A DNA stretch of 64,000 nt from the NCBI GenBank assembly GCA_029261195.1, contig JAJDBU010000075.1, positions 1 through 64,000 on the forward strand, written 5' to 3'. Positions 20,042-56,609 of the stretch are shown in pieces (the stretch's first letter is position 1; every line of letters begins with the position of its first letter). The DNA is from Nitrospirota bacterium (lineage in GTDB: Bacteria > Nitrospirota > Nitrospiria > SBBL01 > JAADHI01). The notes beneath the pieces are model-generated. The model was not told the DNA's origin and searched no databases. It saw only the letters and a list, made by a program, of their open reading frames with translations. The translations under genes and the position numbers were made by a program.

Positions 20042-20596
20042 GTGTTGGACAAGAAACAATCCGGGGAACTCAATCAGTTTTTGGCAGGGGTCGAAGGCAG
20101 AGCTTTTGTGATCGCCCGGATCGCGACACGCGACGCCGAGGCAGCGCTGGATCTGGTTCAGGATGCGATGTTCAAACTGGCTCAAAAGTATGGAGATCGG
20201 GATGAGTCGGAATGGGCTCCGTTGTTTCACAGAATCCTCCAACATTGCATCCGGGACTGGCAGCGCAGGACATGGGTTAGGAACAAATGGCGCACTTGGT
20301 TTCCATCCAATCGGGACAAGGAAGGATCGGAGGAGAAAGATCCGATTGAGGCGGTTCCGGACATCCGTGCCCGGAGTCCGCTTAATCACTTGGCCGACAA
20401 GGGCACAAGGGCTGCGCTGGAAATCGCTCTCCACTCTCTACCCTTGCGCCAGCGCCAAACCTTCCTATTGCGCGCTTGGGAAGGCTATAATGTGGCGGAA
20501 ACAGCAGGGATTATGGGCTGTTCGGCAGGGAGTGTGAAGACCCATTACTCCCGGGCGGTTCGAGCCTTGCGTATCAAAATGAGGGCATATCAATAA
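20042..20596 (+). CDS. RNA polymerase ECF-type sigma-70 factor
   Basis: ALDLVQDAMFKLAQKY region 2 and LPLRQRQTFLLRAWEGYNVAETAGIMGCSAGSVKTHYSRAVRALR region 4. Confidence 0.92.
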   Translation: MLDKKQSGELNQFLAGVEGRAFVIARIATRDAEAALDLVQDAMFKLAQKYGDRDESEWAPLFHRILQHCIRDWQRRTWVRNKWRTWFPSNRDKEGSEEKDPIEAVPDIRARSPLNHLADKGTRAALEIALHSLPLRQRQTFLLRAWEGYNVAETAGIMGCSAGSVKTHYSRAVRALRIKMRAYQ

Positions 20597-20997
20597 TGAA
20601 TAGAGAGGACAAAGAGACGGTTTTTATTGCTGACGCAAAGGCGGACCTGGATGAAGCCCTTCGAACGCTTGATCCTGCTATCGCTTCCCGTCTGCGCATG
20701 GCGCGCCATCGCGCACTTGATGCAGCAGCGGAGAAACAGCGGGTACCGTGGCTACTGCCTGCTGTTGGTTTTGCATCTGCCTCCCTCGGTGTTCTGGCCC
20801 TCTTTTTCCTGCTTCAAGCCCCCGAACAGAAGCAGCTTGTTTCGCGAAACACTTCGAAGGGTAGGTCGGAAAGTCGTTCTGGAAGTCTTGCGGGGAGTGT
20901 GGAAGACCTTGAACTACTCGCGTCATCAGAGGCGATAGAATTTTATGAGGATCTCGAATTTTACGGCTGGCTGGCGGAAGGAAATCGTGCAGGTTAG
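20596..20997 (+). CDS. DUF3619-like membrane protein (possible anti-sigma partner)
   Basis: LDPAIASRLRMARHRALDAA plus one TM segment; ATGA-type coupling to sigma factor gene. Confidence 0.75.
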   Translation: MNREDKETVFIADAKADLDEALRTLDPAIASRLRMARHRALDAAAEKQRVPWLLPAVGFASASLGVLALFFLLQAPEQKQLVSRNTSKGRSESRSGSLAGSVEDLELLASSEAIEFYEDLEFYGWLAEGNRAG

Positions 20998-21322
20998 AAT
21001 TTTTTCTGGAATCACTTCTTTATTGATTGGGATATTTTTCGTGTTAATTAGCGTACACGCCGGGGCTCAGGGGGAGGACGAAATCACATCTGCCGATATC
21101 GCCCTGCTGGAATTCCTGGGGGACTGGGGGACGGAAGAGGGGGAATGGATCGACCCCTTGTTATTTGATGATGAAGCGTCCGGTGTCGAACCCGTGACTA
21201 CAGAGGGATCTATCGCAGACGGAATGGGTGCAGACGGACTGGGTGAAGACGATGTTTGGAAGGATGAGGAAATGAATCGGGGAAAGGCTCAAAACCCTAA
21301 GGAAGAGGAGGAAAGGAAATGA
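20986..21322 (+). CDS. small acidic exported protein in sigma/DUF3619/DUF3106 operon (GTG start proposed; track start 20945)
   Basis: VRIFSGITSLLIGIFFVLISVHAGAQ signal peptide then acidic D/E-rich mature part; lies between DUF3619-like and DUF3106-like genes. Confidence 0.6.
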
Positions 21323-21921
21323 TTAAGGGAAGGCTTGTATCCGTCCTCAGCATTTTGATTGCTCTTCTTCTGCCGATAGTGCTTCCAATGGCCGTATTTT
21401 CCGCACCGCCTGGAATTTCATGGAGTGAACTGAGTCAGGCCCAGCAGCTTATTCTTCAGCCCTTTAAGGCTAAGTGGGACCAACTTTCTCAAGGCCGGCA
21501 GAAGCGATTGATGAAGGGTGCGAAACTTTGGGAGAAGATGACACCCGCAATGCGGAAAAAGGCGAGAGTGCGTCTTAAAGAATGGGATCAACTGCCAACA
21601 ACGAAAAAAGATCGGATTCGTTTTCGTTTTAAACAATTTAAGAATCTCTCAGAAAAACAGAGGGTCAAGCTACTGCGTGAAAGACGGCTTTTTAAGGATC
21701 TGCCCCCTCAAATGCGTCAAAACTTACGCAGGGAATGGGAAGGATTGAGTCCGGAAAGAAGACAAAAAATCCGTCATGATCTCGGTCTTAAAAACGCCCG
21801 GGATCATGATCGGCTTGAGCGCAGCAATCTCGGGCGCGAACGTCTGCATGACCGACTCGAAGGCCAAAACCAGATTGAGAGACGTCTTCGTCAGAGAAGA
21901 GACCGCCATCAGCGGCCTTGA
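21319..21921 (+). CDS. DUF3106-like exported protein
   Basis: Signal peptide; repeats of xxWxxLSxxQRxRLxxxAxxWxxMTPxxRxxA type. Confidence 0.8.
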   Translation: MIKGRLVSVLSILIALLLPIVLPMAVFSAPPGISWSELSQAQQLILQPFKAKWDQLSQGRQKRLMKGAKLWEKMTPAMRKKARVRLKEWDQLPTTKKDRIRFRFKQFKNLSEKQRVKLLRERRLFKDLPPQMRQNLRREWEGLSPERRQKIRHDLGLKNARDHDRLERSNLGRERLHDRLEGQNQIERRLRQRRDRHQRP

Positions 21922-22650: not shown

Positions 22651-24030
22651 TTAATTGCAGACTATTTTGTCTTCAAGCCGACAGTTTAGCTTGCCGCGCT
22701 GTAGCGTAATTTGTAGGCGGTCATTCTTTGAAAGGTCCCCTGGATCGCGAACAACACGCAGACTGGGAAGTAAGCGGGTAATGCTGTAGCCTCGCCCCAG
22801 AATATTCAAAGGGCTTAAGAGATGAAGCTGCTCCATCGTCGCCTGTAAACGGTCCTTTTTTCGTTCAATATCGCGCATCACTTCTTGTATGAGTTTCATG
22901 TTCAGGTTCTCGTGCTTTCTTCTTAATTCACTTAAACGACTGAGCGGGCTTAAATGGTTTAGAGCCAGCTCAGTTGTTTTGAACCGGTTTTTTCGAGCTT
23001 CAATGACTCGGGTTATTGCCTGATTCAGTCGGAGCGCAAGGTGATCGACTTGTTCTGCTCGAAATTGAAGCTGCCGTCGAGGCGGTGCAAGAAGACGTAA
23101 GGCAAGGTCGATGCGGTCTCTTTGTGCGCTCAGAATCATTTTCATGCGATCAAGCAAGGCTTCTCGCAAAATAAGTACTTTTTCTATTGAGTCCATGCCG
23201 GATTTCACCACCAAGCTTGCAGCAATCGAAGGGGTTGGAGCGCGGAGGTCTGCGACATAGTCGGAAATTGTTGAGTCAGTCTCATGTCCGACAGCAGAGA
23301 TCACAGGGATAAGAGACCTGGAAATAGCAAGTGCAAGCGCTTCTTCATTAAATGGGGCGAGATCCTCAAATGATCCTCCTCCCCGTGCCAGGATCAGGAG
23401 ATCGAGCGTATTGCCATGCGTCTGCAGGCTGTAGCTGTTTAGTTGCTCAATGGCATGTACAATCTCAGTTGCGGCATTTCTGCCCTGCACTGTTACCGGA
23501 TAAATCAGGATGCGGCACGGAAATCGGCTCTCTCGCATGACCTGCAATATATCTTGGATCGCCGCCCCGCTTGGGGAAGTGATGATCCCGATTCTAGAGG
23601 CTTGGCTTGGCATCGTTCTTTTCCGATCAGCATGAAACAGCCCTGCGTTTTCCAGTTTTTGTTTTAATGCCTCAAAGGCAGCCAGGAGCGCCCCTGCCCC
23701 CATAGGCTCAATGTAGTCACAAATGAGTTGATATTCGCCTCTGGGTTCATAAAGGCTGAGGTGAGCACGGATGAGTACCGATGCCCCCTCTTTTGGAATA
23801 AATCGCAAAAATCTCATGTGAGATTTAAAGATGATGCCCCTGATCTTGGCATCAGTGTCTTTTAAAGTGAAATAAAGATGACCCGATCGCGGCATTCTGG
23901 GGTCAGAAATCTCTCCTTCGACCCAGAAGTCTGAAAATGAAGCTTCGAGTAGACCACGGATCTCGCTTGTTAATTCGTGGACCCTTAGAATTCTTCGTTT
24001 TGGACTAAGGGCCGCAAACAAATCCGGCAT
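22651..24030 (-). CDS. xseA: exodeoxyribonuclease VII large subunit
   Basis: FWVEGEISDPRMPRSGHLYFTLKD, RIGIITSPSGAAIQDI, ARGGGSFEDLAPFNEEALALAI, VISAVGHETDSTISDYVAD. Confidence 0.96.
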   Translation of the reverse strand: MPDLFAALSPKRRILRVHELTSEIRGLLEASFSDFWVEGEISDPRMPRSGHLYFTLKDTDAKIRGIIFKSHMRFLRFIPKEGASVLIRAHLSLYEPRGEYQLICDYIEPMGAGALLAAFEALKQKLENAGLFHADRKRTMPSQASRIGIITSPSGAAIQDILQVMRESRFPCRILIYPVTVQGRNAATEIVHAIEQLNSYSLQTHGNTLDLLILARGGGSFEDLAPFNEEALALAISRSLIPVISAVGHETDSTISDYVADLRAPTPSIAASLVVKSGMDSIEKVLILREALLDRMKMILSAQRDRIDLALRLLAPPRRQLQFRAEQVDHLALRLNQAITRVIEARKNRFKTTELALNHLSPLSRLSELRRKHENLNMKLIQEVMRDIERKKDRLQATMEQLHLLSPLNILGRGYSITRLLPSLRVVRDPGDLSKNDRLQITLQRGKLNCRLEDKIVCN

Positions 24031-24165
24031 CTAAAGCTCCCAAGTGTAAAGCGAGATCACCATAAATAGCAGTTGGCGCTTAAGTTAATAAACATAATTT
24101 GAAAAAGGGATTAGACGTAAAAAGGGAAGCCTGACAACCAAAACAGGTGAAAATATTTAAAAAAA

Positions 24166-24341
24166 GTCCCTACCTTGCCGTAGAGTAGATCAGCTCAAAC
24201 CCGGGTTACCAGGTGGACGCCGAGATGGAAGCATTAGGCTTTTCCGTCGTACGGGGAACATGCACACAACCCCCTTGGACTCAGCACCCTTGCTCTTATT
24301 GTTAGGTTTGGAGACTACCAACCTACGCACAAAGCAGGGAC
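24166..24341 (-). ncRNA. ssrS: 6S RNA
   Basis: About 176 nt directly downstream of zapA (conserved zapA-ssrS synteny). 5' GUCCCUGCUUUG..CGUAG pairs with 3' CUACG..CAAGGUAGGGAC to form the closing stem; 3' part AAGCCUAAU...CCACCUGGUAACCCGGGUUUGAG resembles E. coli 6S; U-tract follows. Confidence 0.85.
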
Positions 24342-24348
24342 AATATTT

Positions 24349-24376
24349 TCTATAAATCGAGACTATCAGAGTCCAA
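24349..24376 (-). promoter_or_regulatory. sigma70-type promoter of the 6S RNA gene
   Basis: Minus strand TTGGAC-16 nt-TATAGA, about 7 nt before the predicted 5' end of the 6S RNA. Confidence 0.55.
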
Positions 24377-24407
24377 ATAAAATTTCAAGTATCACCCGGA
24401 AAGGGAA

Positions 24408-24704
24408 CTATGTTGGCAAAGGATCATCGAATTCTTCTTCGATGCTTTCGATGATGCGCTGTGTTTTTTTCTCCGCAGCCCCATCCTGTTTCTTTTGTTT
24501 TTCCTGTAGCTGTAATAATTCGTCTGCAATATTAATTGCAGCAAGAACGACTAGCTTTGAGAAGGGGCTTCCCTCTGAGTGCTGAGAAATCTCGTGTATT
24601 TTTTTATCGACTATTGCCGCAAGTTGCTGCACATAGTCTTGATCAGCTTCCCCGCGAAGGGTATAGCGACGTCCGAAGACCTCAATATGGAGTTGTTTGT
24701 TCAG
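24408..24704 (-). CDS. zapA: cell division protein ZapA (non-ATG start; track start 24782)
   Basis: NKQLHIEVFGRRYTLRGEADQDYVQQLAAIVDKKIHEI...KLVVLAAINIADELLQLQ; homologous part begins after a CTG codon preceded by AGGAG. Confidence 0.85.
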   Translation of the reverse strand: MNKQLHIEVFGRRYTLRGEADQDYVQQLAAIVDKKIHEISQHSEGSPFSKLVVLAAINIADELLQLQEKQKKQDGAAEKKTQRIIESIEEEFDDPLPT

Positions 24705-24957
24705 GGGCTTGCTCCTGTTGCTCAATGACAGAGTCGTTAAGATCCTCACCCAGGTGGTTAAGAGTACCCAGGATTTTTTCAACCCGGCCGCGTACCTCCG
24801 CCCGTTCTTGCTGTAAGTGAAGAAAAGATTCTGCTTGTTCGCTCAGTTGAGCCTCCAATGCCCGTTTTTCACCCTTAAGATCTTTAAGCTGTTGAATCAA
24901 TTCATGAACACGTTTTTCCAGTAGGTCCAAATCTTCCAATGAATATTCCTCCATCAT
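24682..24957 (-). CDS. zapB: ZapB-like coiled-coil cell division protein
   Basis: 91 aa coiled coil MMEEYSLEDLDLLEKRVHELIQQLKDLKGEKRALEAQLSEQ directly upstream of zapA. Confidence 0.7.
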   Translation of the reverse strand: MMEEYSLEDLDLLEKRVHELIQQLKDLKGEKRALEAQLSEQAESFLHLQQERAEVRGRVEKILGTLNHLGEDLNDSVIEQQEQAPEQTTPY

Positions 24958-25080
24958 TTGTTGTGTTTGTGGCTTATTCCTGAAACACGAAAAAAATAAA
25001 CTAACGCTTCATCCAATATTTGTCAAACAGTAAGAATGTCCTCAACTTCGCTTTAAATGAACGGGACTAAAACTGTATTT

Positions 25081-26349
25081 TTATTTTTGTGCCACCTCTT
25101 TTTTTATCTCATGCTGCGATTTAAAATAAGCACCCAGGCCCTCCTTTGCGGCCTGAGCCGCAACGATACGCCACAAGGGATCATTCACAACCATTGCAGC
25201 AACGACAATTTCAGGGTCTTCCAGTGGAGCCATCCCGACAAACCAGCTATACCGCCCACGCGGATTTTTACCTCTTAAAGATCCAGTCTTCCCTCCAATT
25301 TTGATCTTGCGAAGGCTCCGATCAAGTTTCCGCCGACGAAAGATGTTTTGGACCGTTCCTTTTTTAACTGTAAGTCCCATCATTTCTCGAAGGATTGCTG
25401 CCGTTTCTCGTGAGACAACCGTATTCAGGGGTTTTGGTACACATTCATAGATTTTTTTACCAGCCGAGTTCTTCACAAAATCTACCATGCAGGGGGCCAT
25501 CATCACCCCCTTATTCGCAATTGCAGAACCAAGCAGAGCAGCATGAAGTGGTGACAAACCGACCGCACCGAAGCCGGCGGCTGTTTTCGCAAGCGAGCTT
25601 TCAGTCTCATCCATTTCTATTCGGCTGACTTCTACTGGAAGTTCAAAGGGAATGGGACGGTTGAAATGAAAATTCATGCCAAATGAAATCAGAGTCGAGG
25701 TGTCAAGCCAGCGAGTCGCAACCTTTGCGAAGATTACATTATTAGACTGAGCAAAGGCATCGGACAGACTCATCTTCAATTTATCTTTCCTTGGGTTATC
25801 ACGCCAATAGGCTGGCTTAAGGCGATTAAAATTGCCTCGATAAGGAATGCTTGTATCGGGTGCAATCCCTTTTTTCTCGACGACCGCAGCAGCAGTGACC
25901 ACTTTAAAAAGTGATGCAGCAGGGTAGGTGGCTCGCAGGAACAAATCTTTCACGCCCGGTTCCCGGCTTGAATGATCGACCAAGGCAAGGACCTTTCCTG
26001 TTTTGGGGGCAATGGCAACAAAGGCGCCGTAGGGCACATCGTATTTTTCAAAATAGGACTTGACTGAATGTTGGACGGTCGTATTCAGGGTGTAAGACGC
26101 AGTGACTCCATTTTCGAATCGAGAGACATACCGTTCCCCTTCAATCTGATCTAATGTCGGGGAAAAGTCCTGAAATCGGAGTGCACCTTCGTGCAGATAA
26201 AGGGGAGTGTCATTGAAAGGATCCAAGTTAAATGCGCCTGAAACCCAGGTCCCGATAGACAGGAGGAACAAGGCCCCTAAGAAAAAGATTGCGGCCTTGT
26301 CTGTCCGACGCCTTTTATTATCCCGACGAAAGCGGTTTTTTCTTTTCAC
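25081..26349 (-). CDS. small penicillin-binding transpeptidase with single TM anchor
   Basis: SLFK (ASLFKVV), SNN (FAQSNNVIF) and KTG (GGKTGSLRG) motifs intact; only ~100 aa between TM and transpeptidase domain. Confidence 0.88.
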   Translation of the reverse strand: MKRKNRFRRDNKRRRTDKAAIFFLGALFLLSIGTWVSGAFNLDPFNDTPLYLHEGALRFQDFSPTLDQIEGERYVSRFENGVTASYTLNTTVQHSVKSYFEKYDVPYGAFVAIAPKTGKVLALVDHSSREPGVKDLFLRATYPAASLFKVVTAAAVVEKKGIAPDTSIPYRGNFNRLKPAYWRDNPRKDKLKMSLSDAFAQSNNVIFAKVATRWLDTSTLISFGMNFHFNRPIPFELPVEVSRIEMDETESSLAKTAAGFGAVGLSPLHAALLGSAIANKGVMMAPCMVDFVKNSAGKKIYECVPKPLNTVVSRETAAILREMMGLTVKKGTVQNIFRRRKLDRSLRKIKIGGKTGSLRGKNPRGRYSWFVGMAPLEDPEIVVAAMVVNDPLWRIVAAQAAKEGLGAYFKSQHEIKKEVAQK

Positions 26350-54742: not shown

Positions 54743-54819
54743 GCGCCCATAGCTCAGCTGGATAGAGTACTTGACTACGAATCAAGGGGTCGGGAGTTCG
54801 AATCTCTCTGGGCGCACCA
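54743..54819 (+). tRNA. tRNA-Arg (anticodon ACG)
   Basis: GCGCCCA acceptor pairs with TGGGCGC, anticodon loop CTACGAA, GTTCGAATC, encoded CCA. Confidence 0.93.
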
Positions 54820-54856
54820 ACTTTTTCAATGAGTTACGAGGATATTTAGGTTTGAA

Positions 54857-55615
54857 TTAGGCTTGAAAACTTGCTACTTTGCCCGTTACTTTGCCCGTCG
54901 CTGAATGTAGAGCACCAATCTTCTCCGCTGCGGTTTTTAAGTCTGACTCGGAGACAACGTTATATCGGTCAAAAACAGATCGAGTTTTATGCCCTGAAAT
55001 GCTCATGGCCACCTTTTCAGGTATCCCAGCCCGGACCATGTTTCGAACCGCTGTCCTTCTGAAATCATGGAAAAGCCTTCCTTCAAGGCCGATGTGCTTG
55101 AGGGCCGTCTTCCATGATTTCTTGAAGCTCTGTAACCGTTCTCCCTCTCTTTGACAAACCCATGGACAATTGGGATAGTTACTGTTTCTGATATCTTTGG
55201 CCATCATGAGAATTTGTAGAAGCTCACCAGTTAGGAATATCATTCTGGGAGTTTTGTTTTTAGTTTGCTCGGGGGAGAGGAAGATTTTACCTTCAAATAA
55301 ATCGACTTGATCCCAACGGAGATTGAGAATTTCGCCTGCTCGCATTCCTGTATAATATGCAATGGTAGATGGTACCTTGGCATAATCCGGGAGAGCTCCT
55401 CTTAGGGCAAGAAATTCATCATGCTCAAAGTATCCCGTCCGAATATTATTCTCATTAAGCATCTTGATATAGGGAACATGTGCTACTTTTCCAGCTTGTA
55501 CTCCGAGATTCAACATCCTTTTTAGGGCAGAGAGTTCGCGGTTGAGAGATGCGTTTGACACGGTTCGTCCTGCCTCCTCAACTTGTTTTATCCGAAAAGC
55601 CAAATATGCTCGCAC
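54857..55615 (-). pseudogene. tyrosine-type (phage-like) integrase lacking its N-terminus
   Basis: TGMRAGEILNLRW (R), FHDFRRTAVRNMVRAG (HxxR), GHKTRSVFDRYNV (Y); reading frame upstream runs into IS3 sequence near 55630, N-terminal part missing. Confidence 0.85.
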
Positions 55616-55626
55616 TTTATCAACCC

Positions 55627-56223
55627 CTATCTCTTGAGCATCTTCAGAAAATCATGGCTGCAATACTGGCTTCCCCGATCTGAATGAAAAATCAAACCAG
55701 GGGCTGGATGACGGTGCCAGATGCCCATCTGTAAGGCATCCATAACCAATTGCTTGTTTATCCGATTGCTCATGGACCAACCCACGATTTTCCGATGAAA
55801 TAAATCCAGAACAACGGCAAGATACAACCAGCCTTCGGAGGTCCACACATAGGTGATGTCTGAAACCCAAACCCGATCAGGTGCAGCAACTTTAAAATTA
55901 CGCTCGAGTAAGTTCTCGGCAATCGGCAGATTGTGTTTACTGTCTGTTGTTACCTTGAACTTCTTTCTTCTTCGAACAGAAACCCCAGCCAAATTCATCA
56001 GCGTTCGTGCTCTATAGCGACCGCAGCGAGTGCCATTTGCTTCGATTTCTTCTGAAATACGCCGAGTACCATAACTTTCTCTTGATTCCCTAGACGCTCT
56101 TTTTACTATTGGGATGAGATTCTCGTTCTCTATCTGCCGAGTCGATTTCTCTCGTTTCCGCCATGAATAATAACCACTTTGGCTTACACGCATCACCTGA
56201 CATAACAGGACAATTGTATACAC
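55627..56223 (-). pseudogene. IS3-family transposase OrfB, C-terminally truncated
   Basis: HTH_21 and rve core ([45 protein letters not shown]), the final E-containing region is absent. Confidence 0.88.
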
Positions 56224-56609
56224 CTTCTTCTCGGTATCAATAAATTGATATCTCAGTCCGTTTCTTTCGCGAAGAAGGTTGCCGCCTTTTTTAATATTTC
56301 GCGCTCCAGCTTCAAGCGCTTATTTTCCTTTCGGAGATGTCTTAATTCGGTCTGTATATTCACCATGCTGACTGACCCTGAATTACCATCTCTATTCATT
56401 TCCCGCTTCCAACGGCCCAGAAGATTAGGATTGATGCCCAAATTCCGTGCTGCTTCTGATATCGCATAGCCTTGTTCCAATACCAGCTTTACTGCTGCTT
56501 CTTTGAATTCTTTTGTGTGATTCCTTCTTTGCTTATTTCCCATCGAACACCTCCTCTATGATTGATAATTCAATCTTAAGAATGTGTCCACTAAAACCCT
56601 ACCACCTCA
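55630..56609 (-). mobile_element. IS3-family element copy A, 5' part only (IRL, orfA, truncated orfB)
   Basis: orfA 56253..56543, orfB 55627..56223 ends at [18 protein letters not shown]; terminal sequence TGAGGTGGTAGGGTTTTAGTGGACA at 56609. Confidence 0.85.
56253..56543 (-). CDS. IS3-family transposase OrfA
   Basis: RRNHTKEFKEAAVKLVLEQGYAISEAARNLGINPNLLGRWKRE, leucine zipper REILKKAATFFAKE. Confidence 0.9.
   Translation of the reverse strand: MGNKQRRNHTKEFKEAAVKLVLEQGYAISEAARNLGINPNLLGRWKREMNRDGNSGSVSMVNIQTELRHLRKENKRLKLEREILKKAATFFAKETD

Follow-up and report, generated by a model that had tools for sequence, protein, structure and literature searches.

The window (the whole stretch analysed: 64,000 nt, positions 1–64,000 of contig JAJDBU010000075.1 from a Nitrospirota bacterium) carries zapB, zapA and a 6S RNA gene (ssrS), adjacent in that order on the minus strand and followed by xseA. 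The zapB gene (24682–24957, minus strand; PF06005, 32.9 bits with a cut-off of 31.5) overlaps the 5′ end of zapA (24408–24719, minus strand; PF05164, E 1e-19), for which the start codon is approximate. The 6S RNA gene occupies 24163–24343, and xseA, encoding the exonuclease VII large subunit, lies at 22651–24030 on the same strand (PF02601, E 4e-93). Pfam matches to both neighbours support the position between zapA and xseA proposed in an earlier sequence-only reading of this DNA.

A search of the minus strand with the Rfam 6S covariance model (RF00013) returned a significant match of 181 nt at 24343–24163, spanning the full model (positions 1–187 of 187) and scoring 89.3 bits where the gathering score is 46.4 (E 2e-16); the boundaries of the gene are taken from this match. 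The sequence-only reading had called a 6S RNA of about 176 nt within 24166–24376; the identity holds, whereas the length is revised to 181 nt and that interval takes in the promoter proposed with it. A clade-specific covariance model gave 171.4 bits, the window sequence being itself a member of that model. No second 6S RNA was found in the window's genome (99% complete), either with Rfam or with the clade model at E values up to 10. From the family match and the covariation described below, the minus-strand feature is almost certainly the single 6S RNA gene of this bacterium, which belongs to the class Nitrospiria, near Ca. Manganitrophaceae/Troglogloeales.

The closing stems reported from the sequence (GUCCCU/AGGGAC, GCUUUG/CAAGGU and CGUAG/CUACG) are all present on the minus strand and close a rod-like RNA, in which the closing stem, large central bubble and terminal stem of RF00013 are supported by covariation. 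Within the window RNA, 44 of the 49 mapped model pairs are standard and five are non-standard. The window sequence and those of 21 Nitrospirota relatives were aligned in MAFFT and the Rfam structure was projected from the window sequence; the alignment was built from sequence alone, its 22 members having been found by covariance model. Two-sided changes occurred in 30/49 pairs (shuffle mean 17.9) and in 91 cells (35 in shuffles), 83.7% of paired cells could pair (shuffled mean 75.9%) and the covariation score was 0.300 (shuffled mean 0.168). Paired cells, two-sided pairs and covariation score were each reached by none of 500 shuffles, and sliding the 3′ partners by 1–3 columns lowered pairing to 41–54%. 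Directly 3′ of the closing stem, sequence inspection and a terminator scan locate the predicted U-tract as seven T at 24165–24159 (minus strand), the single terminator-like site in 23900–25100 and probably the point of intrinsic termination or the 3′ end of the 6S RNA. This T tract would also suit a reading of the stem as a mere terminator or a fortuitous fold in the zapA 3′ region, to which we give next to no probability: a chance structure is excluded by the covariance-model score together with the covariation, and not by the folding energy of the single window sequence, whose minimum-free-energy excess is modest (z = −2.3).

Upstream of the RNA, the conserved element is a promoter at 24388–24360 on the minus strand (TTGAAATTTTATTTGGACTCTGATAGTCT), with a −35 box TTGAAA (24388–24383), a 17-bp spacer ending in TGA, and a −10 box TAGTCT (24365–24360) preceded by an extended −10 TG. 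Of 30 6S loci, 27 have the pattern TTG-N17-TGnTAnnnT upstream at the fixed 17-bp spacing, where shuffles average 0.085; close relatives are among these loci, so the 27 are not independent events, and the pattern covers seven or more families in the class. Three loci lack it (L012, L043 and L054), of which the congener L043 retains a degraded form only, and the promoter is therefore conserved without being invariant. A generic promoter scan of the 6S region found no promoter, having missed this one because its −10 box is TAGTCT. Genome-wide, the TTGAA form of the motif has five matches as against two for a reversed control, and the stricter TTGAAWTTT form has a single match, the 6S promoter itself. 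The motif was also considered as a mark of other stable RNAs or of a regulon; given only five matches against two in the control, no regulon is claimed. Besides the 6S promoter, the window has one more match, at the end of an integrase gene that adjoins a tRNA.

Two other accounts of how the RNA is made bear on this promoter. The sequence-only reading had placed it at TTGGAC-16-TATAGA, which is indeed present at 24376–24349 (minus strand) and would start a transcript right at the modelled 5′ end of the 6S RNA. Upstream of the 6S genes of relatives, however, this sequence occurs at chance level: allowing up to four mismatches, it is found at 6/30 loci, and shuffles give 6.05. It also overlaps the conserved element TTGAAA-17-TAGTCT, which begins 12 bp further upstream. 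We reject it as the main promoter and regard it as unlikely to be a functional one in the window species.

The second account derives most of the 6S RNA by processing from a long dcw-zapB-zapA-6S transcript. In its favour, the genes from ftsZ to xseA share one strand in the window, and the gap of 64 nt between zapA and the 6S RNA gene holds no terminator that we could find. The description of the locus as the tail of an extended dcw cluster applies to the window and to the one congener sampled (L043, with proC-yggT-divIVA-transpeptidase upstream of zapB), but not to the five other zapB-zapA-6S loci of the same family in which the attachment was checked with Pfam: in these loci, which belong to other genera, zapB is preceded by a divergent panE/apbA (L044, L046, L048 and L050) or by an unrelated gene (L053). 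Attachment to dcw is thus specific to the window's genus as sampled, so that a regulatory meaning of the link is unsupported by conservation. Against processing as the main source stand the dedicated promoter pattern, kept at fixed spacing in several families where zapB-zapA lie away from dcw, and two Spirochaetota-type loci (L061 and L064) in which the 6S RNA gene is opposite in strand to zapA. We consider such an origin quite improbable; transcription of the 6S RNA from its own conserved promoter is the preferred reading, with co-transcription from dcw possible in the window and not a conserved design.

With the conserved promoter in use, the −10 box ends 16 nt ahead of the modelled RNA, and its position implies a 5′ leader of about 10 nt. 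The corresponding distance is 16–17 nt in most of the family and lies anywhere between about 4 and about 45 nt across the class, which suggests either that 5′ leaders are trimmed or that the RNAs differ in their 5′ ends. A parallel, given here as background only, would be the short leader reported for E. coli 6S RNA and its processing.

The window ZapA protein has its named relatives in Nitrospirota MAGs, Ca. Manganitrophus and Ca. Troglogloeales among them, which places the window in the class Nitrospiria. The arrangement zapB-zapA-6S is kept among relatives throughout the taxonomic order. Their usual order is zapB-zapA-6S-rarA-xseA, with rarA (MgsA) and then xseA following in 10 named loci, one of them that of the congener L043, where rarA sits exactly between the 6S RNA gene and xseA. 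A search for rarA (PF12002) gave no match at all in the window's genome, and the 6S RNA gene abuts xseA there because rarA is absent; a further genome (G008, locus L012) likewise has no rarA and likewise has its 6S RNA gene adjoining xseA. The adjacency of 6S and xseA is therefore secondary. Other families of the class have an RNase Y gene downstream of the 6S RNA gene.

Some loci outside this pattern were also seen. One Troglogloeales MAG has a tRNA gene in the place of the 6S RNA gene directly after zapA (L055:4313-4384, plus strand). In a Nitrospirae MAG, the conserved 6S promoter motif follows right after zapA (L059:4306-4334, plus strand); the sequence behind it gave no Rfam match, no clade-model match and no unusual fold, and possibly a diverged or a different RNA lies there. 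In two Leptospiraceae/Spirochaetia MAGs the 6S RNA gene adjoins zapA on the opposite strand (L061:4376-4558 and L064:4305-4482, both minus strand), so the neighbourhood is kept even though co-transcription is impossible.

Adjacency of zapA and ssrS, cited in the sequence-only reading as conserved in many proteobacteria, is described for beta- and gamma-Proteobacteria as part of a zapB-zapA-ssrS-(fau)-EVE unit (PMC7641849), and the window has zapB, zapA and 6S in identical order and orientation. Compared with E. coli ssrS and RF00013, the window RNA shares the full-length model match, closing stem, central bubble and apical stem, as well as its place immediately downstream of zapA in the same orientation; it differs in its divergent sequence and in what follows. 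Neither fau/ygfA nor an EVE-domain gene comes after the window 6S RNA gene, as one of them does downstream of E. coli ssrS; xseA is next, and rarA or the RNase Y gene in relatives. Linkage of rarA to 6S is known from lactic acid bacteria and B. subtilis (PMC8414754). There is a likeness to these Firmicute loci in that rarA directly adjoins 6S in the relatives of the window, but it lies upstream of 6S in lactic acid bacteria and downstream in the Nitrospirota relatives, and the window's genome has none. That zapA and rarA, both known 6S neighbours, occur together in Nitrospirota relatives is a small synteny point. To read zapB-zapA-6S-rarA-xseA as an old linkage that couples a brake on RNA polymerase with cell division and the rescue of replication forks, under an unusually constant extended −10 promoter, would be speculative, and we think it rather unlikely.

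Mimicry of an open promoter, binding of RNA polymerase and release driven by pRNA synthesis are established for the 6S RNAs of E. coli and B. subtilis (PMC8058203). By family membership, the window RNA most likely acts in the same way: a transcript starting near 24353 with a leader of about 10 nt would fold as an open-promoter mimic and would bind and repress the housekeeping sigma70-type RNA polymerase when growth slows. The polymerase would then read the 5′ side of the central bubble as a template (predicted at 24301–24314, minus strand, from alignment columns), and a short pRNA beginning near 24301 would release the 6S RNA. The predicted pRNA, with its first G opposite C24301, would begin GUUAGGUUUGG. 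The start column, chosen from the alignment near E. coli U44, holds C in 19/22 sequences, and GG falls at positions 4/5 or 5/6 of the predicted pRNA in 22/22, the start having been picked with this rule already in mind. GG at these positions is a feature reported for pRNAs (PMC8414754), and for a start near 24301 the column and the GG are supportive only. The window gene is an ordinary and unsurprising new representative of an established RNA family, and leaves the known function of 6S RNA unchanged; the literature searched yielded no dedicated 6S study for Nitrospirota, which gain a confidently annotated 6S RNA with a promoter and a likely pRNA site.

Further 6S-like RNAs were met in relatives. 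A same-family relative (G003) has a second, divergent 6S RNA away from zapA (L031:3487-3668, minus strand), scoring 114.8 bits with the clade model and 49 with Rfam. In two other families of the class, genomes carry a second 6S-like RNA of about 160 nt in addition to the main one (L032:2931-3090, L033:3150-3309, L035:3300-3458 on the minus strand, and also L034), with its own TTGACA-type promoter and weak Rfam scores of 30–45 bits. In the largest family of the class sample, probably Nitrospiraceae (L039–L042), the 6S RNA matches only the centre of the Rfam model (59–134), mostly just under the gathering score, and a closing stem of its own (GUGGGAGGAG/CUCCUCCCAC) can be seen in the sequence; standard annotation will consequently miss most 6S RNAs of this type.

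Elsewhere in the window, in a plus-strand run at 20042–21921, opposite in strand to the dcw-6S run, an ECF-like gene (sigma-70 region 4) is followed by two ORFs that resemble membrane proteins and by a DUF3106 protein. At 54743–56543, an integrase gene and ORFs of IS3-type transposases come after a tRNA gene (anticodon ACG), the integrase gene being convergent with it; the arrangement resembles that of an element integrated at the tRNA.
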